DNA of 33,938 nt from Endomicrobium sp. (lineage in GTDB: Bacteria; Elusimicrobiota; Endomicrobiia; Endomicrobiales; Endomicrobiaceae), in assembly GCA_031290155.1 (NCBI GenBank), contig JAITOB010000018.1, positions 1 through 33,938 on the forward strand. Reading direction: 5' to 3'. This document shows positions 540 through 33,754 of the stretch, one piece after another (the stretch's first letter is position 1; each line of letters begins with the position of its first letter). The position numbers were made by a program, and so were the translations under genes. The notes under the pieces are model-generated. The model was not told where the DNA came from. It saw nothing but the letters and a program-made list of their open reading frames with translations, and ran no database searches.

Positions 540-1716
540 AGTTTTTATTTTAAAAAATTTGATCCAAAATCACGGAAAACGTCAGTCGATGTTATGGAAA
601 TAAGGAAACAGATAATTGTTGAGGAAGAATATCGGGAACTAATTATCTTTCAATAAAAGCTCCGTTGATAATAAATGATAAAGTTGAGAGAGTAATAGGG
701 CTTGCAGTTGACATAACAGACAGAAAAAGAGCGGAACGGTCGTAAGCAGAACAATTAGAATTAGAAAATAAATTATATGAAAGCACTAAAAATCTTGCAA
801 AACAAGTAGCTCACGATATTCGTTCCTCGCTGGCTGCTTTGTCCATCTTTATACAGTATTGCCAAAATTTATCCGAGAAAGAACATACAATGTTAAGAAA
901 TATAACTACAAGCATTGAAATCATTACAAGCACGCTGCTTGAAAAATATAATACAGACCCTGTTATCAACAAAGATACAGAACAATACGTGCGTGTTAAT
1001 TTCAATTTACACAATGTACTCAAAATATAAAATACCAATACAAAGAATCAAAAATAGTATTTAACTATTTTCCAAATTCAGCTTATAAGCTTGTATTTGT
1101 AAAGGGATATTTTTCTGATCTTACAAACAATGCTGTTGAGGCTATAGAAGGAAAAGACGGAGTTATAGATATTGACTTTAGTGTAAAGAAGGTAAAGTTA
1201 AAATTATAGCAAGAGATGGCGGCAAGGGTATGTCAAAAGAAATGGTCAACAAAATTATAAACGATATTGATATAGGTACTACAAAAGAAAGCGGATATGG
1301 TATCGGCTTGCAGCAAATAAAATGCTAAAATGCTTATTGAATCTAGAGAAAATACCGGTACCGAAATAACACTAATATTTCCTGAATCCAAGCCTCCGGA
1401 ATGGTTTGCCGATAAAATTATATTGCATAAAGGTGATACGGTAATAATAGACGATATATCTATTCACGATATTTGGAAAAATCGTCTGCAGAATTATTTA
1501 GGCGGTATTACTATAAAATATTTACCTAGGGTTTAGAAGCTGTTGAGTATATAAATTCAATACAGGAAAAGGATAAAATCTTTTTACTTGCCGATTATGA
1601 ATTAAGAAATCAAAATATAAACGGTATAGATATTATAGAAAAGTGTAAGTTTATTAAAATAAATCATATATAAACGATATCTCTATAATATTTGAAAAAA
1701 GAGAAAACAAATAAAG
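540..1716 (+). pseudogene. Decayed PAS-type hybrid sensor histidine kinase
   Basis: Fragments in order match one kinase. The end of a PAS/PAC domain reads YLSIKAPLIINDKVERVIG then DITDRKRAER. The H-box region follows (KQVAHDIRSSLAALSI, phospho-acceptor in VAHDIRS). The ATPase N-box is DLTNNAVEAIEG at about 1116-1150, with G-boxes IIARDGGKGM and ESGYGIGLQQIK. A C-terminal receiver-like tail reads GDTVIIDDISIHDIW and LADYELRNQNINGIDIIEK. The reading frame is broken by an in-frame TAA at 743-745, a stop at 1028-1030, frameshifts near 1195 and 1325, and a further shift near 1535. The tail resembles a kinase family with a C-terminal receiver-like domain after the ATPase. It cannot encode a working sensor and is a clear case of lost signal transduction. 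Confidence 0.88.
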
Positions 1717-1805
1717 TTTTGATTATTTTTGTCTTGACTAACTGCCGAAGTAAGTTTTTGTATTTTTCAACTTATCTAACCTAATACAATTTTTATTTCA
1801 TTTTG

Positions 1806-1811
1806 TATAAT
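1806..1811 (+). promoter_or_regulatory. -10 box immediately before recG start
   Basis: A perfect TATAAT ends 6 bases before the ATG at 1818, so transcription would begin at or next to the A of the start codon. No good -35 hexamer is present at 16-18 bases. The same spacing recurs in front of other genes in this window, which raises confidence above that of a lone hexamer in AT-rich DNA. Confidence 0.45.
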
Positions 1812-1817
1812 ATTGTC

Positions 1818-3920
1818 ATGCTAACTCTGGACAGCGAAGTACAATATTTAAAAGGTATCGGACCTAGGCGTTCGCGTGCATTTGCAAAACTAGGGATAAA
1901 AACTTTAGAGGATATGGTTACTTTTTTCCCGGTTCAATATCAGGACAGAACCAACGTTATTTCAATAAAAGATATTTGTGAACAGCTGCAGGGCTGCATA
2001 TTTGGCAGGGTAGGGAAAAATTATGAAAGAGTATTCTCACAAGGACTTTGCCTTTTAGACATAGAAATATTTGATGATGTTTCTATGTTGCATGCCCGTT
2101 TTTTTAGAAAAAAAAATCCGTATTTCAATATAGATATTTTTGCTGCTTTAAAAAAATCTTTTGCAATTGGAGCTTTTGTTTATATTTACGGAGATGTTAA
2201 AATAGAACGCGGAATTAAGTTTATAGTTGTAAATGATTATGAAATTGTTAAAAATTATAATGATAAATCGCTGTCTTTTAACAAAATTATACCGGTATAT
2301 TCTGCAACTGAGGAACTAAATCAAAAATTTATAAGAAATACGGTTAAAAATGTATTGGATACGACCGGCGGGCTGTATCCGGATATGTCAAATTTAATTC
2401 CGGATTTTAAAAGTATTCCTAAACTAAAATCTTCGTTTGCGGTTCAAAAAATTCATTATCCTGATACTTTAGAAGAAGCTGAAAATGCAAGGAGGGCTTT
2501 TGCCTTACAGGAATTTTTTGTTTTGGAATCTGCCCTTTCGTTATCAAGAAATAATGTCAAGAAAAATCCTAAAATACAAAGATACAAAATACGAAAGACG
2601 CTGCTTACAGCATTTAAAAATAATTTAAAATTTGAATTTACAAAAGATCAAAGAAAAGCCATAAATGAGATTTTTTTTGATATGCAGAGCATATACCCAA
2701 TGAACAGAATGCTAATGGGGGATGTGGGTTCCGGCAAAACTGTTGTGGCGTTAAGCGCTGTTTTGTTTGTTGTAGAAAATCGTTATCAGACTATGATAAT
2801 TGCTCCTACTGAAATTTTGGCTGAACAACATTATCTTACGGTGTCAAATATCCTTGCAGGTCTTGATATTAAGACTGTGCTAGCAACTTCTTCCGAACTA
2901 AAGAAAAAAAGTGAAAGAGAAAAAATATTGGCAGGTTTTGAAAACGGCGATATTAAGATCGCAATTGGCACGCATTCATTAATAGAAGAAAGAATAAAAT
3001 TTAAAAATTTGTCATTGGTAGTGGTTGACGAACAGCACAGGTTTGGAGTTATGCAAAAACTTGCTGCGCTTGGGAAGGCGCAGTCTCCCGATATTTTGAT
3101 GATGACGGCGACACCTATTCCAAGATCTCTTGCAATGACTATATACGGCGAAATGGATATGACTACGATTATGCAGCTGCCTCCCGGGAGAATACCTGTA
3201 AAAACTTATTCCTCAAATGAACAAACTGCTTATAAAAATGCGATTGCTGAACTTAAAAAAGGAAATCAGGTGTATATTGTATATCCTCTTATAGATGAGT
3301 CGGATAAACTTGCTTTAAAATCCGCAGTACAAGAATCAGAAAGATTATCGCAGACTTGGTTCAAGGATTTTAAAGTTGGCTTGCTTCATGGAAAAATGAA
3401 GCCGTCGCAGAAAAATGACACGATGAAAAAGTTTAAAAACAAAAACCTTGACGTTTTAATATCTACAACCGTCATTGAAGTAGGAATAGATGTTCCTGAT
3501 GCTACAATAATGATAATACAAAATGCTGAAAGATTCGGGCTGTCAGCGCTTCACCAGTTAAGAGGAAGAATAGGCAGAAGTTCTAAGCAGTCTTATCTAT
3601 ATCTTATCGGCAATTTAAAAAGCGTTAATGCCCGCAGGAGATTTTCAATTATGATTTCCACAAACAACGGATTTAAAATTGCAGAAGAAGACCTTAAATT
3701 GAGAGGCCCCGGAGAATTAATTGGGACAATACAGCATGGTTTCCCCGAATTTAAAGCAGGCGACTTAATAAAAGATGCCGATATTATTGAATTTACAAAA
3801 AATTCTGCTGAAAAAGTTATAGCGGACGATCCTAACCTTAGCAAAGATAAGAATAATATATTAAGAAAGCTTATACATAAACGTTTTTCAGACAAGATAA
3901 AGCTGATCAATGTAGGCTGA
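1818..3920 (+). CDS. recG: ATP-dependent DNA helicase RecG
   Basis: RecG reverses stalled replication forks and branch-migrates Holliday junctions. The N-terminal wedge/OB region starts QYLKGIGPRRSRAFAKLGI, the usual helix-hairpin entry of the family. The helicase core follows with Walker A MGDVGSGKT, Walker B box VVVDEQHRFG (DEQH), motif III MTATPIPRSLA, motif V TTVIEVGIDVP and motif VI QLRGRIGRSS. The C-terminal TRG-type region is present. Length is about 700 residues, normal for RecG, with no disruption. A TTG at 1803 is in frame but lies within the TATAAT box; the ATG at 1818 gives the standard N-terminus and is preferred. There is no Shine-Dalgarno sequence, in keeping with a leaderless transcript. 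Confidence 0.97.
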   Translation: MLTLDSEVQYLKGIGPRRSRAFAKLGIKTLEDMVTFFPVQYQDRTNVISIKDICEQLQGCIFGRVGKNYERVFSQGLCLLDIEIFDDVSMLHARFFRKKNPYFNIDIFAALKKSFAIGAFVYIYGDVKIERGIKFIVVNDYEIVKNYNDKSLSFNKIIPVYSATEELNQKFIRNTVKNVLDTTGGLYPDMSNLIPDFKSIPKLKSSFAVQKIHYPDTLEEAENARRAFALQEFFVLESALSLSRNNVKKNPKIQRYKIRKTLLTAFKNNLKFEFTKDQRKAINEIFFDMQSIYPMNRMLMGDVGSGKTVVALSAVLFVVENRYQTMIIAPTEILAEQHYLTVSNILAGLDIKTVLATSSELKKKSEREKILAGFENGDIKIAIGTHSLIEERIKFKNLSLVVVDEQHRFGVMQKLAALGKAQSPDILMMTATPIPRSLAMTIYGEMDMTTIMQLPPGRIPVKTYSSNEQTAYKNAIAELKKGNQVYIVYPLIDESDKLALKSAVQESERLSQTWFKDFKVGLLHGKMKPSQKNDTMKKFKNKNLDVLISTTVIEVGIDVPDATIMIIQNAERFGLSALHQLRGRIGRSSKQSYLYLIGNLKSVNARRRFSIMISTNNGFKIAEEDLKLRGPGELIGTIQHGFPEFKAGDLIKDADIIEFTKNSAEKVIADDPNLSKDKNNILRKLIHKRFSDKIKLINVG

Positions 3921-7469: not shown

Positions 7470-7475
7470 TATAAT
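7470..7475 (+). promoter_or_regulatory. -10 box before mnmE
   Basis: A perfect TATAAT ends 9 bases before the mnmE ATG at 7485. Predicted transcription start is 2-4 bases before the ATG, leaving no room for a Shine-Dalgarno sequence. No convincing -35 element is seen. Confidence 0.4.
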
Positions 7476-9722: not shown

Positions 9723-9742
9723 CATGTACCAATGTTAATAAC

Positions 9743-9762
9743 TTATCCACAGCTGTGGATAA
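9743..9762. promoter_or_regulatory. Inverted pair of consensus DnaA boxes (perfect palindrome)
   Basis: TTATCCACAGCTGTGGATAA is a perfect 20-base palindrome made of two consensus 9-mer DnaA boxes, TTATCCACA and its complement, sharing the central GC dinucleotide. It ends 12 bases before the dnaA ATG. Known DnaA biology makes this an autoregulatory site and possibly part of an origin. The lone pair, with no box cluster seen around it, favours autoregulation. As RNA it would fold into a stem of about 8 pairs in the dnaA leader. Confidence 0.9.
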
Positions 9763-11175: not shown

Positions 11176-11202
11176 GACCCCCTTAATAGAGGGTCTTTTT
11201 TT
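11176..11202 (+). terminator. Rho-independent terminator after dnaA
   Basis: GACCC at 11176-11180 pairs with GGGTC at 11191-11195 around a 10-base interior that can add two further pairs, followed directly by seven T residues. It lies 49 bases after the dnaA stop and just before the Nudix promoter, separating the two transcription units. Confidence 0.8.
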
Positions 11203-11228
11203 GTTTGAATTCAAAAAAATGATAAAAT
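11201..11228 (+). promoter_or_regulatory. Promoter for nudix-aspS unit
   Basis: TAAAAT at 11223-11228 ends exactly 6 bases before the ATG at 11235, with a half-matching -35 (TTGTTT, 11201-11206) at 16 bases spacing. It directly follows the dnaA terminator, where a new promoter is needed. The predicted start site falls on or next to the ATG. Confidence 0.5.
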
Positions 11229-11234
11229 ATTAAT

Positions 11235-11774
11235 ATGAGTAAAATTATGATTGAGAAATCTATAAAAAAGAATCAAATATATCACGGCTCCGCGGTGGAT
11301 TTTTTCTGCGATGAGGTCGAACTTTTAAACGGCGCCACTGCAAAAAGAGAATATGTGCATCATCCTGGAGCTTCTGCGATTATTCCCTTTATTGATAAAA
11401 ACAGTATCGTTTTAGTAAAACAATACAGATATCCCGTCAATCAAATAACTTATGAAATACCTGCGGGTAAAATTGACAAAAATGAAACGCCGCTAGAATG
11501 TATAACCAGAGAACTAGAAGAAGAAACGGGATATAAATCCAAAAGGCTGGAAAAACTTTTGGCGTTTTATCCTACTACCGCTTTTTCAAATGAAATTATA
11601 CATATTTTTGCCGCTTTTGGACTTAAAGAGGGAAAACAAAATCCTGATGAAGATGAATTTGTTTCTAAAGAAATTATAAGTTTTAAAGAAGCTGTTGAAA
11701 TGGTAAAAAAAGGGAAAATAATGGATTCAAAAACAATTATTGCATTGTTATACTTTGATAGTATTTTAAAATAG
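11235..11774 (+). CDS. Nudix hydrolase, ADP-ribose pyrophosphatase-like
   Basis: A 179-residue Nudix protein of the ADP-sugar pyrophosphatase group (NudF type), which cleaves ADP-ribose to AMP and ribose 5-phosphate. The complete Nudix box lies at residues 78-100: Gly78, Glu84, Arg92-Glu93-Leu94, Glu96-Glu97, Gly99. The preceding VKQYRYPVNQITYEIPAGK is the typical ADPRase lead-in and LLAFYPTTAFSNEIIHIFAA follows as in that group. Substrate is inferred from family resemblance. aspS begins 19 bases after the stop and is probably co-transcribed. No Shine-Dalgarno sequence is seen at the start; a TAAAAT box sits 6 bases upstream. Confidence 0.92.
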   Translation: MSKIMIEKSIKKNQIYHGSAVDFFCDEVELLNGATAKREYVHHPGASAIIPFIDKNSIVLVKQYRYPVNQITYEIPAGKIDKNETPLECITRELEEETGYKSKRLEKLLAFYPTTAFSNEIIHIFAAFGLKEGKQNPDEDEFVSKEIISFKEAVEMVKKGKIMDSKTIIALLYFDSILK

Positions 11775-15141: not shown

Positions 15142-15170
15142 TAAGCTCACTGCTAAATATAAAAAGCTAT

Positions 15171-15176
15171 GATAAT
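15171..15176 (+). promoter_or_regulatory. -10-like box before ybeY
   Basis: GATAAT ends 6 bases before the ATG at 15183, the same spacing as for recG and the Nudix gene. TATGAT at 15168-15173 overlaps it as an alternative. There is no -35 and no Shine-Dalgarno sequence. Confidence 0.3.
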
Positions 15177-16750: not shown

Positions 16751-17038
16751 TAACCAGATACCATACTTTATTATACCCTGCCCCGAGTTACGTTTCTTTT
16801 ATTTCTAACTATATTTTAAATTTTTTATATTTAGTTTGTATTTATTATCATAATTTAAATGAACGATATTGACAAAATACAAAAAAGTTGTTATATCGCT
16901 CATATTAATTCTAGACATCATTTATGTGATAAGTATATATTTTACTTAATTTGACTATACAAAATAATAAAAAATGTAAATCATAAAGATACAGATATTT
17001 TTTAGCAATTATTGAATATTTTGCAAGGAGGCGAAAAA
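16751..17038. other. Intergenic region upstream of amtB
   Basis: No supported gene. A 26-codon TTG frame at 16869-16949 encodes a Lys-rich start followed by one hydrophobic helix (TKYKKVVISLILILDIIYVI), but its first codons coincide with a good promoter and it lacks a ribosome binding site. The region mainly holds the amtB promoter and AAGGAGG ribosome binding site. Confidence 0.5.
16869..16897 (+). promoter_or_regulatory. Sigma-70-type promoter upstream of amtB-glnB
   Basis: A consensus -35 TTGACA at 16869-16874 is followed by a 17-base spacer and TATATC at 16892-16897. It lies about 140 bases before the amtB ATG and could still drive the intact PII gene through the dead amtB. No sigma-54 GG-N10-GC element is apparent. 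Confidence 0.5.
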
Positions 17039-18236
17039 ATGTTTAGTACAGGAGATGTGGCCTTTATTCTTATTTGTACTGTGTTTGTTTTTATTATGAC
17101 GCCAGGACTTGCACTTTTTTACGGCGGATTAGGACGCAGAAAAAATATGGTTAACAATATGATGAATTCTGCGTTTATTATGGGACTTGGTATTTTTCTA
17201 TACACACTTATAGGCTATTCATTGTCATTTGGATATAAAGGCGGAAATTTTATAGGTTCATTTAAAAATATCGGACTTGCGGGCATTACAAAAGATTCTC
17301 TTACGGGGTCTCTGCCTACTTTTGTTTTTGTAGCATTTCAAATGATGTTTTCTCTTATAACGCCGGCAATTATAACGAGGTCAGTTGCTGGCAGAATGAA
17401 ATTTAAAGCATTGTGGTTGATAATTGTGTATTATCCTTTGGCTCATATGGTTTGGGGCAGCGGATTTATCGGTGGTACAATCAAAGCTCTTGATTTTGCA
17501 GGCGGAAATGTTGTGCATATAAGTTCAGGAATAACAGGTCTTATTCCTGCAGTTTTGTTAGGTAAAAGAGTCGCTTATGCGCATAATTCATACCGCCTGC
17601 ATAATGTTCCTTTTATTTTTTTGGGCATGGGACTTTTATGGCTTGGCTGGTTTGGGTTTAACTCAGGCAGCGCTCTTGCAGCGCATGCATTTATAACGAC
17701 AGCCATATCTGCTTCAGCAGCTATGCTGGTGGTGGATATTGATAGATTGTCTTGACAGCGGAAAACCCACGCTGATTGGAGCATGTACCGGCGTTTTAGC
17801 GGGATTGATAGGTATTACTCCTGCGGCAGGGTTTGTTGATATGTGGGGCGGCTTTAATTATTGGCATAACAGTGAGCCCCGTATGTTTTTTGGCATAGTA
17901 TTTATAAAAACGTACTTAAAATTGATGACGCTTTAGATGCTTTTGGATGTCACGGCATCGGCGGTATATGGGGCGGATTATTGACAGGCGTATTTGTAAA
18001 TCCGGCAATTAACGGTGGAAAACCTGGTCTTATTTTTTGGACAAGCTTCACAGTTGATAGCGCAGGTTGAAGGCATACTTGTAACTTTTGTAATAGTTAT
18101 CGCAGGAACTTTGTTATGCGCTGGAATTGTAACTATATTCACGCCTCTTCGTGTAGATAAGAAAGAAGAACTTATAGGTTTGGATATATCAGAACATGGG
18201 GAAAACGCATACCCGTCATTTACAGGATTAGATTAA
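17039..18236 (+). pseudogene. amtB: Ammonium transporter AmtB, frameshifted
   Basis: The first 240 residues are well preserved: MTPGLALFYGGLGRRKN, HMVWGSG and NVVHISSGITGL with the pore histidine region, ending AFITTAISASAAMLV. The frame then slips by one base in a GTGG repeat near 17728. The sequence continues out of frame as SGKPTLIGACTGVLAGLIGI then TPAAGFVDMWG. It slips again near 17850, near 17890 and near 17925, reads DDALDAFGCHGIGGIWGG, and shifts once more near 18025 into GQASQLIAQVEGILVTFVIV, ending DISEHGENAYPSFTGLD. So all eleven helices can still be traced but not translated as one protein. The AAGGAGG ribosome binding site at 17025-17031 is intact, and the in-frame TTG at 17012 is upstream of it. 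Loss looks recent. Confidence 0.93.
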
Positions 18237-20212: not shown

Positions 20213-20364
20213 TTACAATATATTTAGGGTATGTTATCAAAGTTAGTTTATTTTGGCAAGAAGATGTATTAAACATAGCACATTCCTATTTTATACGGAA
20301 CAGTAGTGAAAATAAATATATAAATTGCTGTTAAATAAAAAGAAAGGTGCAATAAACAATATCT

Positions 20365-20940
20365 ATGGAAATATTTTTATATTTATTGCAAATGAGTGAT
20401 AGAACTCAGATTCTTGCGATGACTTTTGCTTTGCGGTTTAAAGCTCTCTATGTTATTTTAGCGGTAATTGTAGCAACTGTTTTGAATCATTCGCTGTCTG
20501 TAATTGTTGGAAGAGTTATTTCCTCAATGGCGCCTTTGACAGTAACTCATTTGCTTGCCCTGGGCTTTTTATACTATTTGCTCTTTTGACTTTGTATAGA
20601 AACGGCGCTGATTATAAAAATAATGAAAAGAAGCTTATAATAAATCTGTTTTTACCATTGTAACAACTTTTTTTATTGCTGAAATTGGCGATAAAACGCA
20701 ATTTGCCACAATAACTCTCTCAATGAAATATACTACAGGAACTGTCTTAGTTTTAACGGACACCGTTCTCGGCGTTGTTTGCGCAGACGTTTTGGTTGTA
20801 ATAGTCGGAATTATAATGAGAAAAGCAGTTGATGCAAAAATCATTAAATGGATAGCCACTGCGGTATTTTCATTTACGGCGTATCGGGTATTTGGAACGG
20901 CTTAAACGAAGTTTGTGTACGCTCATATGCCGTTTTATAG
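20365..20940 (+). pseudogene. UPF0016/GDT1-family cation exporter, frameshifted
   Basis: GDT1/TMEM165-type proteins export Mn2+ or Ca2+ and carry two E-x-G-D-[KR]-[TS] motifs. The second is perfect here (TFFIAEIGDKTQFATITLSM), in a frame starting near 20655. The first has drifted to LQMSDRTQILAMTFALRFKA, losing the Glu and Gly. The frame breaks near 20570, again near 20655 and again near 20865, where the terminal IYGVSGIWNGLNEV lies in a third frame. All three pieces line up in the right order over about 190 codons, the family length, so this is one gene inactivated by at least three indels. Confidence 0.85.
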
Positions 20941-21012
20941 AAATATTCATAATACTGGCTACAGTGTTTAGCGGCTTTGATTATAATAAAAACAGGGGGG
21001 ATACCGTATAAA

Positions 21013-22193
21013 ATGATTAACAATATCAAAAAATTTCAATATACTGATATTTTGGCTGGTCAGTTTCAAGATGCGACAAGTTTTCAAACTGCAAAAGACA
21101 ATATTTTATGATTATTCTGCAAAATTTGATAAAGACATCCCTCTTGAAAAGATACAATTTTAAAAAATTAACTTCTAAAGCTTTAGAAACCGACAAGATT
21201 GTGCATGATATTATAAGAGATATGCTTAGAAGATATCGAGTGAGCGCAAAACCGTTAAATAAAGATAAATTTTTTAAATATTCTTTTGAGATGACGGAAA
21301 AATACTGTAATTCAAAAACTTTTTTTTGAACATTATTATAATAATGAAATAATTATAATTTCAGCAAAAAAAGCATGCGATATAATTCCTATTATAGTTT
21401 ACCTTTATCTGCAATATTGCGAAAAAAATGTTAAAATTGAAGATGACTTGATTGCAGAATTTATAAATACTGTGTAAATGAAACAAAGAATATGTACGAA
21501 TACCTTAAAGTCGGGGCCTAAAATATTATATTTATAAAACAGCTTTTAAAACTCGAAGTGGTAAATTTAGAGGTATAATTGGCGTTCTCATATAACCGTT
21601 ATTTTAGGATATACTCAGTTTAATGAGAGATAAAACGCCGGATGGTGAAACTGCAAAAGCGATAAAAAGTATGTATGACGCCGCTCAGAGAAGCCATAAT
21701 ATAATTAAAATATGTTTGGATTTGCTAGAACAGATTCCTTAAAAGTACAAGAAATAAATATAAATAATATCGTTGAACAAACTTTATTTATAGTTGAAAA
21801 AGATTTTTTTAAATCAAATATAAATTGTCAAAGATCTTACGGATCAATCTGTTTTTGTATTAGTAAATCCTATGCAAATCCAGCAGGTGATTTTAGATAT
21901 TATGTTAAATGCCTAAGATGCAATGCCTGACGGCGGCAAGCTTACTATTATACTACTGTAGAAAAAAGATAAGTATGTGTTGAGTTTGAAAGATACCGGT
22001 ATGGGCATTGAAAAAGACAACATTGCCAAAGTATTTGATCCGTTTTTACTACTAAAGAAGTCGGCAAAGGCACAGGGCTCAGACTATCAATATGTTACGG
22101 TATAATTAAGGGGCTTAAAGGCAAAATTTCAGTTGAAAGTACCGTTGAAAAGGTACGGTTTTCTACATGGAATTTCCTTTAAAAAAGATATGA
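21013..22193 (+). pseudogene. Decayed NtrB-like sensor histidine kinase
   Basis: The remnant starts with ATG at 21013 behind an AGGGGG ribosome binding site. Its N-terminal half is unassigned (YTDILAGQFQDATSFQTAKD; MTEKYCNSKTFF). It then shows kinase parts: ITVILGYTQF after a damaged H-box, RSHNIIK, an N-box region with LVNPMQIQQVILDIMLNA then DAMPDGGKLTI, G1 LKDTGMGIEK, F-box [16 protein letters not shown] and the closing [23 protein letters not shown]. At least six frame changes or stops interrupt it. Its stop overlaps the rmuC ATG as ATGA, so the pair was once translationally coupled. With the first kinase this makes two lost sensors in one window. No partner response regulator is visible. 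Confidence 0.85.
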
Positions 22194-27873: not shown

Positions 27874-30800
27874 CTAGTATTCTTTGATTCCGTAGTAATC
27901 TTGCAAATTATCAAAAACAACATAATAGATATAATGAGTGCGTTTACTGTAATTATAAAAGGCATCAATTGGATTTATTGAATACAGTTATCGGTTTAAT
28001 TGATGAAATGCCAAAAGAGTTGCAAAACGTTAATCTTACAGTCTGCAGTACAGGTTCCGGCGCTATAGAATTATCGCAAAAAAAACAAATATAGATTTTG
28101 AGCAGGAGGTTATAGCCTGTACTAAAGCAATCAAAACTTTTCTTCCAGAAACTAATGTAGCAATAGAGCCTGGCGGCGAAGATGCCAAAATTACATTTTT
28201 TGACAATGTTTCAATAAATCAGATAATGAATGAAACTTGCGCAGGGGGCACAGGTTCTTTTATAGATCAAATGGCCCAGACTCTGCGAACCGATTCTGCA
28301 GGTATAAATGAGTTTTCAAAAAAACATAAAACTATTTATCCAATAGTCGCAAGATGCGGAGTTTTTGCAAAAACCGACATAATGCCGCTTTTAAATGAAG
28401 GAGCGGCAATAGAAGGTATAGCTGCCGGTATTCTGCAGGCTGTTGTTAACCAAACTATAGCGGGTTTGGCTAAAGGACGCACCATTAAAGGAAATGTATG
28501 TTTTCTTGGCGGCCCTCTTTTCTTTTTGTCGGAACTTAGAAATCGCTTTATAAAATCATTAAAATTAAAACCGGAAAATATATTTTTTCCTGTCAATGCG
28601 CATTTTTTTGTGTCTTTTGGAGCGGCTTTGTTAAGCAAAGGTGCGGAAACTACATTTTTACAGCTCAAAGAAAAATTTAAAAACCTAAAAGATTCTCCTG
28701 TCAATGCTAAATCTGAATTACTTGCTCCGTTGTTTGCAGACAACAAAGAATATGAAACATTTTTACAGCGTCATAATAAAATGTTTGCAGCCAAAACTAA
28801 ACTTGAAAATGTGAAAGGCAGTTTATTTTTAGGGGTTGATGCCGGAGACTACTAAAGCGGTTTTAATAAATGAAAATAAAGAAATAGCGTATTCTTATTA
28901 CGCTTCAAATAACGGGAATCCTTTGCAGTCTGTAGTAAATATTTTAAAAAGTATTTATTTAGAAATTCCAAAAAAATACGCAGATAGCAGGTTCTTGTGT
29001 TACCGGTTACGGCGAAGCTTTAATTAAGACAGCTCTTAATTTTGATGAAGGTGAAGTTGAAACGATAGCCCACTATAAAGCGACGCGTCATTTTAATCCA
29101 AATGTATCTTTTATTTTAGATATAGGCGGACAGGATATGAAATGCATATATGTTAACAATGGACTTATAAATAAAATAATTTTAAATGAGGCATGTTCGT
29201 CGGGCTGCGAGTCTTTTATACAAAATTTTGCCCAGTCGTTAAATTATACAGTGCAGGATTTTGCTAAACTTGGACTATTTGCAAAAAGACCTGTGGATTT
29301 AGGGTCAAGATGTACGGTTTTTATGAATTCTAAAATCAAGCAAGCTCAAAAAGAAGGCGCTGATGCGGGTGATATTTCTGCAGGACTCAGCTACTCTGTT
29401 GTCAAAAATCTTTGTACAAAGTTATAAAAATAAACATTCTGCTAGAACTTGGCGGCTGCATTGTTGTTCAAGGCGGCGCATTTTTAAATAACGGAGTTTT
29501 AAGGGCTTTAGAGATTATTTTGGATACGGAAATTATTCGTCCCGATATTGCAGGTCTTATGGGAGCTTTTGGTTCTGCCCTTATTGCTTTACAAAATAAA
29601 AAGGCTTCATCTTCTTTGATTTCAAAATCCAAACTGGAAGATTTTTCATATAAAATGAAAAATACGCGCTGTAAAGGCTGCGAAAATAATTGTCAATTGA
29701 ATGTTACTGTTTTTAATGACGGTAAAAATTTTATTTCCGGCAACAGGTGCGAAAAGGTTTTATACAATACCAAATTAAGAAGTTTCGCTTTCAATATGTT
29801 TAATTACAAATATAAACGTCTTTTTGATTATTATAAGCCACTTCCTTTATCAAAAGCTCCGCGAGGCGAAATAAGGCATACCGCGTGTTTTAAATATGTA
29901 TGAAAATTATCCTTTCTGGTTTGCTTTTTTACGAAACTTGGATTCAAAGTAGTTTTGTCGGATCATTCGTCCGAGACTTTGTTTAACAGCGGTCTTGACA
30001 ATATCCCGTCTCAAAGTATATGTTTCCCCGCAAAGATGGTTCACGGGCATATAACAAATCTTGCGGAAAAAGGCATTAAACTAATTTTTTATCCGTGCAT
30101 ACCGTATGAAGTGAAAGAATTCAAAGATTTCGATAATCATTATAATTGCCACATAGTAGGAAGCCATCCTGAGGTTATACGTTTAAACATGAGTATTTTG
30201 GAAGAAAAGGGAATAAAATTTTTATAGCCTTTTCTGCCTTTCGACAATACTAAAAGACTAATATACAGACTTGTAGAAGAGTTCAAAGGGCTTAAAAATT
30301 TTAATATAACAAAAAAGGATTTAGTCTTTGCAGTATTAAGGGCAAGAGCAGCGTTAGACTTATTTAAAAAAGATATAAGAAGACAAGGAGCTTTGTTAGT
30401 AAAAGAAATTAAAGGAACCGGTAAAGCAGCGGTTATTATTGCGGGTAGGCCGTATTATGTTGATCCTGCAATAAATCATGGTATTGCAGATTTAATTGCG
30501 TCGTACGGAATATGGTTTTAAGCGAAGATTCTATAGCGCATTTGTCAGGACCGCTTCCCAAAGTTAATTTCGTTGACCAATGGATGTATCATTCTCGTCT
30601 CTACCGCGCTGCTAATCTTGCCACGAACATAGAAAGCCTTGAACTTATACAGCTTAATTCTTTCGGCTGTGGTTTAGACGCTATCACAACTGAGCAGACT
30701 GAAGAAATTCTTTCCAAATCAGGTAAAATTTATACAGTTTTAAAAATAAACGAAGGCTCTAATCTTGGAGCGATCAAAATACGCATACGTTCGCTGCTTG

Positions 30801-32080
30801 CCGCCATAAAAGAAAGAAAAGGATTAAAATTTAAAGATAATATTTTTGAAAGTACTAATTTCTTGGAATTTACAAAGATATGAGGGATTCTTACACTATT
30901 TTATGTCCGCAGATGTCGCCTATTCATTTTTATCTTGCAGGGTCCGTTATGCGCAACCACGGAATAAAATTAGAAGTTTTGCCTAAAGTAAATAAATCCG
31001 ATATTGAAGAGGGGTTAAGATACGTCAATAATGACGCTTGTTATCCTACAATAGTTGTTGTGGGGCAGCTTATAAATGCTTTAAAATCCGGTAAATACAA
31101 TATAAATAAAATTGCAATGATAATATCTCAGACAGGAGGAGGCTGCAGGGCCACCAATTACGCTGGATTTTTAAGAAAAGCGTAGAAAAAGCAGGCTTTA
31201 AAAATGTGCCTGTAATTTCTCTAAGCACAACGGATTCTTCGCTTAATAAATCTTTGGGAATTTCTTTTTCAATGTTGAAAGCCTCTTTGCTTGTGCTGCT
31301 TTACGGCGATTTGCTTATGAGGCTTTCAAATCATATGCGGCCTTATGAGGTTGTTTCAGGACAAACTGACGTTTTGGTTGAGACTTGGCTTATCAGGCTT
31401 TCCAATAAAATAGGAAAAACATTTTATTTCAATTTCAAAAAAACTGTAAAAAAATTATTAAAGATTTTGAAAACATAGCCGTTCAAAAAATAAACAAACC
31501 GCGTGTAGGAGTTGTTGGAGAAATTTTGGTTAAATTCCATCCTGATGTCAACAATAATTTGGTTTCAACTTTGGAAAAAGAAGGCGCGGAAACGGTGGTT
31601 CCAGATATGACAGATTTTATCAATTACTGTATGTTTGACAACATATATAAACATAAATATCTTGCTGGAAGTTTTAAAAATAAAGTTATGTCGCTTATTG
31701 CAAGCGGTTATATAGAAAGACTTAGGTCTGTTATAAGAAAAATGCTGAAAAAAAGCAGTCATTTTAATTCATACCAAACTACAAACGCTTTGGCGCACAA
31801 AGCCTCCGATATTATTTCAGTATGCAATCAAACCGGCGAAGGCTGGCTGTTAACTGCAGAAATATTAGAACTTATAGAATACGGCGTAAACAATATCATT
31901 TGCGTGCAGCCTTTTGGATGTCTGCTCAACCATATAACAGGCAAAGGCGTTATGAAAGAGCTCAAACGTAGATATAAGAATATAAATATTACGGCAATTG
32001 ATTATGATCCAGGTGCGAGCGAAGTGAATCAAATTAACAGAATTAAACTTTTAATGAGCGTTGTTCATCAAAAAAATTGA
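27874..32080 (+). pseudogene. Giant acyl-CoA dehydratase activase-related protein, heavily frameshifted
   Basis: About 4.2 kb once encoded a protein of about 1400 residues. Two BadF/BadG/BcrA/BcrD (activase) ATPase units come first: NETCAGGTGSFIDQMAQTL and RCGVFAKTDIMPLLNEGA, then [20 protein letters not shown] and [20 protein letters not shown] Cys cluster follows (TRCKGCENNCQLNV, GNRCEKVL). Then come a DUF2229-like part (DNIPSQSICFPAKMVHGHI, AGRPYYVDPAINHGIADLI) and a terminal HgdB-like part (NNDACYPTIVVVGQLINAL, SQTGGGCRATNY, YDPGASEVNQINRIKLL). Roughly ten breaks are seen, near 27933, 28080, 28853, 28990, 29425, 29900-29960, 30225, 30515, 30880, 31180 and 31475. Related proteins activate 2-hydroxyacyl-CoA dehydratases of amino acid fermentation; the exact role of this large type is not established. 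No such dehydratase lies nearby. Confidence 0.9.
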
Positions 32081-32374: not shown

Positions 32375-32403
32375 TTGTCGTCATTCTAAATATTCTGTAT
32401 AAT
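32375..32403 (+). promoter_or_regulatory. Promoter abutting the ABC-F pseudogene start
   Basis: TTGTCG at 32375-32380, a 17-base spacer, then a perfect TATAAT at 32398-32403 that ends 5 bases before the ATG at 32409. This is the best-formed case of the window's promoter-on-start-codon layout, with both hexamers and ideal spacing. No Shine-Dalgarno sequence follows. Confidence 0.6.
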
Positions 32404-32408
32404 ACTGT

Positions 32409-33754
32409 ATGTTAAAGCCTATTTTTTTAAATCGCATAAGCCTGTATTTCTCTAATAAAGTTTGTTTTGAAGATTTCTCAGCTCAAATACATTCAAACAG
32501 CTGTATTGCCGTTATAGGAAATAACGGGTCTGGAAAATCGTCTTTATTGAAAATTATTAAAGGTGATTTAGTGGCATCTGAAGGTGAAGTGCAAAATAAT
32601 AAAAATGTTTTTTTCGGTTATGTTCCGCAGATAATTTACGACTACGAAAATTTGAGCGGCGGAGAAAAATTCAATAAAGTTTTAAGCGCAGCTTTTTCAT
32701 ACTTTCCCGATGTTTTACTTTTAGATGAACCGACAAATCATTATTGAACTCTCGAGAAGTTCTATTAACACATTTTGGCACATAAATTATGGAACAATAC
32801 ATATTTTTAACGGTAAATATGATGACTATCGTCAAAGTATATTACAAAAGCGTCAAACTGTTGAATATGAACTTAATTTACTTACGAAAGAAAAAAAGAA
32901 AAATCATAAATCGTTAATGATAGAACAGCAGCGCGCAAAGAAAAGCAGACAAAGAGGCGAAAAATTTGTTGAACAAAAAAATGGCTCTCTGCGGTAGGAG
33001 ATTTAAAAGAAAGCTCTGCTAAAAAAAACGCCGGTAAAAACCAAAAAGCAATTGCGGATAAAAGGGAAATACTAACTGAGCGGCTTTCAAATTTAAGACT
33101 TCCTGAAATAATAAAACCTGCCTTTTCTTTAAGGGCTAAGGATATGGGTTCAAGAACGATTGTTTCAATAAGTTCAGGAGGAATTGGATATAAAGATAAA
33201 ATGATTTTAAAAAATATCAATTTATCAGTTTCAGGAAATGACAGGCTGGCAATAATCGGCAATAACGGTTCTGGCAAAACAACGCTGTTCAAGGGAATTT
33301 TAAATTGTCCTCAAATTGTAAAAACAGGAATTTGAGACGTACCTGATGCTAAAAACATAGGATATTTGAACCAGTATTATAGTTCTTTAGACGATACAAA
33401 AACGGTTTTGGAAACATTAACCGATATATTTTCTGAAAAAACGCACGCTGAGATAAGAGATTTTTTAAATGATTTTTTGTTTAAAAAAAATGAAGAAGTA
33501 AATAAACCAACATCGGTTTTATCAGGCGGAGAAAAAGTAAGACTGTGTCTTGCTAAGATTGCAGCACAAACGTTTAAACTGCTGCTTATAGACGAAATAC
33601 AAATAATATTGATTTGGAGACAAAAGAACACATTGCCCGAGTATTAAAAGAATATCCTGGAGCTGTAATAATAATTTCTCATGACAAAACATTTTTGGAA
33701 AATATAGGCATTACTCATTATTATGCCTTGCAATCATATATGCTACACCAATGA
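32409..33754 (+). pseudogene. ABC-F family ATPase, disrupted
   Basis: ABC-F proteins are soluble twin-ATPase factors acting on ribosomes. Cassette one has Walker A VIGNNGSGKSSLLKI, signature NLSGGEKFN and Walker B VLLLDEPTNH. Right there a deletion removes the D/H-loop region, and a stop (32744-32746) follows. A charged linker (KRQTVEYELNLLTKEKKKNH) leads to a slip in an A7 run near 32981. Cassette two has Walker A IIGNNGSGKTTLFKG and then TGA at 33333-33335 where Trp would fit. It continues with signature VLSGGEKVRLCLAKI, a Walker B damaged by a further slip near 33595 (LLLIDE, then TNNIDLETKEHIARVLKEYP) and H-loop IIISHDKTFLENI. Subfamily cannot be set. At least four lesions make it non-functional, although promoter and start remain good. 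Confidence 0.9.

Follow-up and report, generated by a model that had tools for sequence, protein, structure and literature searches.

Promoter-like boxes adjacent to start codons point to a minority class of probably leaderless genes in Endomicrobiaceae

The window, i.e., the whole stretch of DNA analysed here, is 33,938 nucleotides long and makes up all of contig C36 in a genome of Endomicrobium sp., a termite-gut endosymbiont (1.11 Mb, 36 contigs, 85% complete). On its forward strand lies recG, which encodes an ATP-dependent DNA helicase (1818..3920; NCBIfam RecG, E 7e-234) and whose nearest relatives are the RecG proteins of Endomicrobium and Endomicrobiellum MAGs from termite guts (77% / 76% identity). 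The ATG of recG at 1818 is preceded by the hexamer TATAAT (1806-1811) at a gap of six, where the gap is defined as the number of bases between the end of a -10 box and the ATG. Directly 5' of the box is a conserved T-tract/TG (TTTTG-TATAAT, 1801..1811), and the six bases of the spacer occupy 1812..1817. Transcription starts about 7 bases past a -10 box. With TATAAT as a -10 box, the predicted transcription start is at or beside the A of the ATG, and the mRNA of recG is predicted to be leaderless.

The original prediction named seven genes in the window with boxes in such positions and without a Shine-Dalgarno (SD) sequence, namely recG, a Nudix hydrolase gene, mnmE, an ABC-F pseudogene, ybeY, cls, and nrnA. 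The positions given for the boxes all agree with the sequence, and inspection confirms that SD is absent before all seven genes and present at rbfA, aspS, amtB, glnB, and dnaE. As examples of leaderless genes, the seven are of unequal quality: recG is a strong case and the Nudix gene holds as well, mnmE is plausible, as is the ABC-F pseudogene, and ybeY, cls, and nrnA lack support.

The Nudix gene (11235..11774, forward strand), with NudE/AdpP-type matches under curated cut-offs, has TAAAAT at 11223..11228, which is a gap of six to the ATG at 11235. Between dnaA and the Nudix gene there is a terminator-like hairpin followed by a T run (11180..11203, forward strand), and from this follows that the Nudix gene, which is predicted to be leaderless, probably needs a separate promoter. 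In G024, a close relative with a 99% complete genome, the Nudix ortholog also has TAAAAT-N6-ATG, with a different coding start. The box of mnmE (TATAAT, 7470..7475, forward strand, gap nine, ATG 7485) would plausibly yield a very short 5' UTR or none, and a TANAAT box is absent at mnmE in G024 and in G001, a second relative that was compared in part only. The putative promoter of the ABC-F pseudogene (32375..32403, forward strand) consists of TTGTCG (32375-32380), N17, and TATAAT (32398-32403) at a gap of five to the ATG at 32409; its ortholog in G024 has no box, and a purine-rich tract takes its place.

At ybeY (forward strand, ATG 15183) there are two overlapping weak boxes, TATGATAAT (15168..15176): GATAAT (15171-15176) with a gap of six, and TATGAT (15168-15173), which has a gap of nine and retains the more important first T. 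The corresponding place in G024 is without an ATG. Only weak boxes precede cls and nrnA, and nrnA of G024 has an SD-like start. As leaderless genes, these three candidates lack support, their boxes being either unconserved or weak enough for chance.

To see how the boxes are distributed in whole genomes, consider the genes called by coding score in the window genome and in G024, about 93% of which was used in the counts, with the start defined as the first ATG and, for part of the genes, checked by orthology. A start is classified as SD-led when at least four matching SD bases precede the ATG. By this rule, 418 of 768 ATG starts in the window genome and 487 of 810 in G024 are SD-led, and the most enriched words before starts are SD-like hexamers. 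The anti-SD sequence of Endomicrobia is given as CCUCCUUU in PMC10783764; the pattern used for the 16S 3' end gave no match. CAGAGA, AGAGAG, and AGAGAA are over-represented at gap 5-7 before no-SD starts in both genomes, and are probably a GA-rich SD variant that the SD rule missed. In G024, starts are preceded far more often than expected by GACAAC(TA) at gap 5-7 and by GGATAG at gaps of 2, 17, and 22, a pattern that suggests a gene family or repeat whose leaders are almost identical.

The peak of TATAAT close to start codons that the original prediction asked for in the genome as a whole is present among the no-SD starts only. When all called ATG starts are pooled (n=695) there is no peak, with 8 exact TATAAT at gap 5-9 where the frequency at gaps 20-39 predicts 8.75, because the zone of gap 5-9 is taken up by SD, and a genome-wide count of TATAAT-N-ATG without regard to gene context is flat because coding-frame periodicity dominates it. 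At the no-SD starts, TANAAT at gap 5-9 occurs 34 times in the window genome and 27 times in G024, versus 11.7 and 9.5 expected from a position-specific first-order Markov model fitted to the same sequences, which is about 2.5-3 times the expectation in both genomes. A similar picture emerges when the 20 bases directly before the starts are put through dinucleotide shuffles, with 34 versus 13.3 and 27 versus 10.7, numbers that were reached in 0 of 300 shuffles. The TANAAT form was picked with the data in view; exact TATAAT, the motif of the original prediction itself, is enriched by the same shuffles as well (9 versus 3.8 in the window genome, 10 versus 3.2 in G024). The gaps peak sharply at six in G024, where only one hexamer-position pair before no-SD starts is more over-represented than exact TATAAT at gap 6 (6 versus 0.8); in the window genome they are scattered across 5-9. 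The excess corresponds to about 17-22 TANAAT genes per genome, or roughly 2-3% of called ATG starts.

Could TATAAT-like hexamers simply arise by chance in AT-rich leaders, where the selection of starts without SD raises A+T further? The GC content of 32.5% in the window genome and the lack of a peak over all starts are in line with such an origin. Furthermore, boxes within one mismatch show a smaller excess, just 64 versus 46, and from this follows that many single examples, some of the seven included, are due to chance. However, the controls that account for position-specific composition and dinucleotides in the same genes are exceeded, and chance leaves unexplained the sharing of boxes by orthologs, the -35-like elements at spacers of 17-18, and the constant spacing at recG. 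For the class of boxes, the chance reading is refuted by the controls, and overall it is highly improbable.

The start-adjacent boxes also have the surroundings of promoters. A TTGACA-like hexamer is found 16-18 bases 5' of 16 of the 61 start-adjacent TANAAT boxes in the two genomes. Other boxes have one in 23 of 333 cases (Fisher 4e-5), and starts that lack a box in 35 of 604 (Fisher 2e-6). Only spacers of 17 (18%) and 18 (7%) contribute to the excess, while all other spacers, and the controls, stay at about 0-3%; this spacing is strong, if indirect, evidence for the boxes as candidate sigma-70 promoters. The boxes are, moreover, about three times commoner at genes that do not lie tightly behind a gene on the same strand: 29 of 229 such genes versus 5 of 121 tightly packed ones have a box in one genome, and 24 of 231 versus 3 of 92 in the other.

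A+T-rich leaders can aid initiation. The box also overlaps the usual ribosome-binding zone, and it could in principle be a translation enhancer in a leader of normal length, either as an unstructured stretch or as a non-SD ribosome-binding element like those proposed for Bacteroidetes or S1-dependent mRNAs. A role of this kind is hard to reconcile with a -35-like element at 17-18 bases and with the avoidance of tightly packed downstream genes, which are features of promoters, or with a recG box that stays fixed at six bases while the sequence of the spacer drifts. It is given very little credence.

Between the window genome and G024, 461 pairs of orthologs agree in their ATG starts and N-termini, and 104 of these pairs lack SD in both genomes. 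Among these 104, 18 pairs versus 7.8 expected have in common a box at gap 5-9 with no more than one mismatch, and 10 pairs versus 2.8 expected have TANAAT there in common, while sharing of either form is at chance level at four control distances (15-34 bases). A core defined more loosely (TA...T, two mismatches) was dropped, because orthologs have it in common at two of the control distances too. The boxes conserved in both genomes include those of an 8-oxoguanine glycosylase (ogg-type) gene (C18:23316; Pfam Ogg-HhH; gap 6 in both), an HD-domain gene (C32:50665), a DNA methylase gene (C27:233), secG (C15, minus strand), and a small gene of unassigned family (C5:460), which has TTGACA-N17-TAAAAT-N6-ATG in both. 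Start-adjacent boxes were also seen at other genes of the family, in loci L200, L201, L202, L210, L222, L204, L207, L191, and L195, where the genes, named from their N-termini only, are polA-like, coaD-like, lspA-like (signal peptidase), and transporter permease-like.

The conservation extends furthest for recG. Exact TATAAT at gap 6 is present in 18 of 40 distinct sequences upstream of recG in Endomicrobiaceae, or 19 when L210 is included, whose start had been placed at a too early ATG; among the rest are one TATAAT at gap 7 and several near matches at gap 5-9. A few of the recG pairs are near-identical, and the 18 are therefore not 18 independent events. Within the 18, the box is 100% identical by selection of the sample; the five bases 5' of it, on which there was no selection, have an average pairwise identity of 80%, while identity is only about 35% in the spacer and in the DNA 5' of this short stretch. 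Compared with its position in the window, the ATG itself is displaced by -2, 0, or +1 codons, with the gap held at six. Some relatives have a recG without the box, and five of them (L188, L189, L191, L195, and L200) have an SD-like match instead. TATAAT-N6-ATG is also found at recG in L100, a more distant, class-level relative.

These displacements bear on the possibility that the boxes are promoters and the annotated ATGs wrong, so that translation would begin further downstream after a short leader. The starts are indeed predicted ones, and some genes have alternatives. However, the ATG of the recG orthologs keeps to six bases from the box through shifts by whole codons, and the ortholog pairs were picked by their matching N-termini; wrong starts are scarcely credible as the explanation. 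A bolder proposal, tentative and rather unlikely as it stands, is that selection keeps recG leaderless in much of Endomicrobiaceae, with box and ATG moving together at six bases and some lineages converted to SD, and that leaderless translation of recG, the ogg-type gene, and others may sustain expression when SD-led initiation is off.

The boxes are very probably sigma-70 promoters that give leaderless or nearly leaderless mRNAs from about 20 genes per genome, an estimate that counts TANAAT only and to which weaker boxes would add. The two classes of initiation put forward in the original prediction, an SD-led majority and a probably leaderless minority, gain support from the genome count, the conservation between orthologs, the -35 spacing, and the position of the genes. 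As the -10 element of an ordinary sigma-70-type promoter, the box would place the transcription start at the A of the ATG or immediately upstream of it, and the mRNA would be leaderless or begin with about three bases of leader at most, gaps of 8-9 allowing a leader of 1-3 bases. Such an mRNA could not make use of SD pairing, and initiation would probably take place at the 5'-terminal AUG by a ribosome to which initiator tRNA is already bound, like for other bacterial leaderless mRNAs. What the sequences show directly is the enrichment of the boxes, its conservation, and the -35 spacing; the start position, the lack of a leader, and this mode of ribosome recruitment are what we infer from them, and the leaderless minority would be old in Endomicrobiaceae.

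An arrangement with the -10 box adjacent to the start codon and a leaderless mRNA is known from Deinococcus and Mycobacterium. In Deinococcus-Thermus, where RNA-seq, sigma-factor interaction, and reporters are behind the ORF-adjacent -10 motif, the box likewise lies 6-7 bases before the ORF, SD-led genes exist alongside, and the box is conserved between orthologs (PMC12340547). There, however, it concerns nearly one third of the genes and a degenerate TANNNT with TACACT as its most frequent form, while in Endomicrobiaceae it would concern a few percent of genes, with a box near TATAAT and a -35 element in about a quarter. TA-like signals have been predicted in 207 of 953 genomes, chiefly Actinobacteria and Deinococcus-Thermus (Zheng 2011, PMC3160421). 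They share with the present boxes the form TANNNT with its first T about 12 bases before the start (gap about six) and, in low-GC genomes, the form TAtAAT, sometimes preceded by TG; Elusimicrobia are not mentioned in that paper, in which one genome appears only as unclassified. The leaderless class of GeneMarkS-2, cited in PMC9581028, is predicted for 21.6% of bacterial species; it resembles the present case in its mixture of leaderless and SD genes within one genome, and a relative may figure among its species. A search of mostly openly available literature found no earlier report on leaderless genes in Elusimicrobiota. The arrangement itself is known in bacteria, and its occurrence in Endomicrobiaceae is new as far as that literature goes. 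By this prediction, the low-GC, SD-dominated Endomicrobiaceae (Elusimicrobiota) would be added to the bacteria that have a class of leaderless genes, recG would exemplify a switch between leaderless and SD-like starts among the orthologs of a single family, and SD-based gene finders can place the starts of such genes wrongly.

It was also suggested that genome reduction in an endosymbiont had compacted promoters onto start codons, which is a claim about origin and compatible with leaderless mRNAs. The window genome is small and has many broken genes. Nevertheless, recG has the same arrangement in Praeruminimicrobium, from an anaerobic digester (lifestyles from PMC11257099), in an environmental Endomicrobiaceae MAG, and in Parendomicrobium and Proendomicrobium (gap 7), termite-gut relatives outside the endosymbiotic genus. 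For relatives in the family as a whole, genome sizes of up to 2.4 Mb are on record. Outside recG, TANAAT at gap 5-9 is found at about 12 of 164 starts in rumen/digester loci and about 10 of 167 in termite loci, counts that were hand-corrected for recG and in which a few orthologs enter more than once, versus 34 of 768 in the window genome. Since digester and environmental relatives carry the recG box and the rates of boxes are no lower in rumen and digester loci, the arrangement appears to predate reduction in this lineage and not to rise with it, and reduction as its cause is most improbable. The broken genes of the window (600-1650, 17006-18236, 20340-22160, 28034-32080, and 32403-33700) are typical of a decaying endosymbiont genome; they comprise amtB, an activator/dehydratase-like long gene in pieces, ABC-F, and sensor-kinase-like fragments, all identified by eye except ABC-F.

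One further element of the window lies upstream of dnaA. A perfect palindrome of two DnaA-box-like sequences, CTTATCCACAGCTGTGGATAAG (9739-9762), reaches to within about a dozen bases of the dnaA ATG (9775), and a similar element is kept in G024 and G001. It possibly serves autoregulation or is part of the origin.
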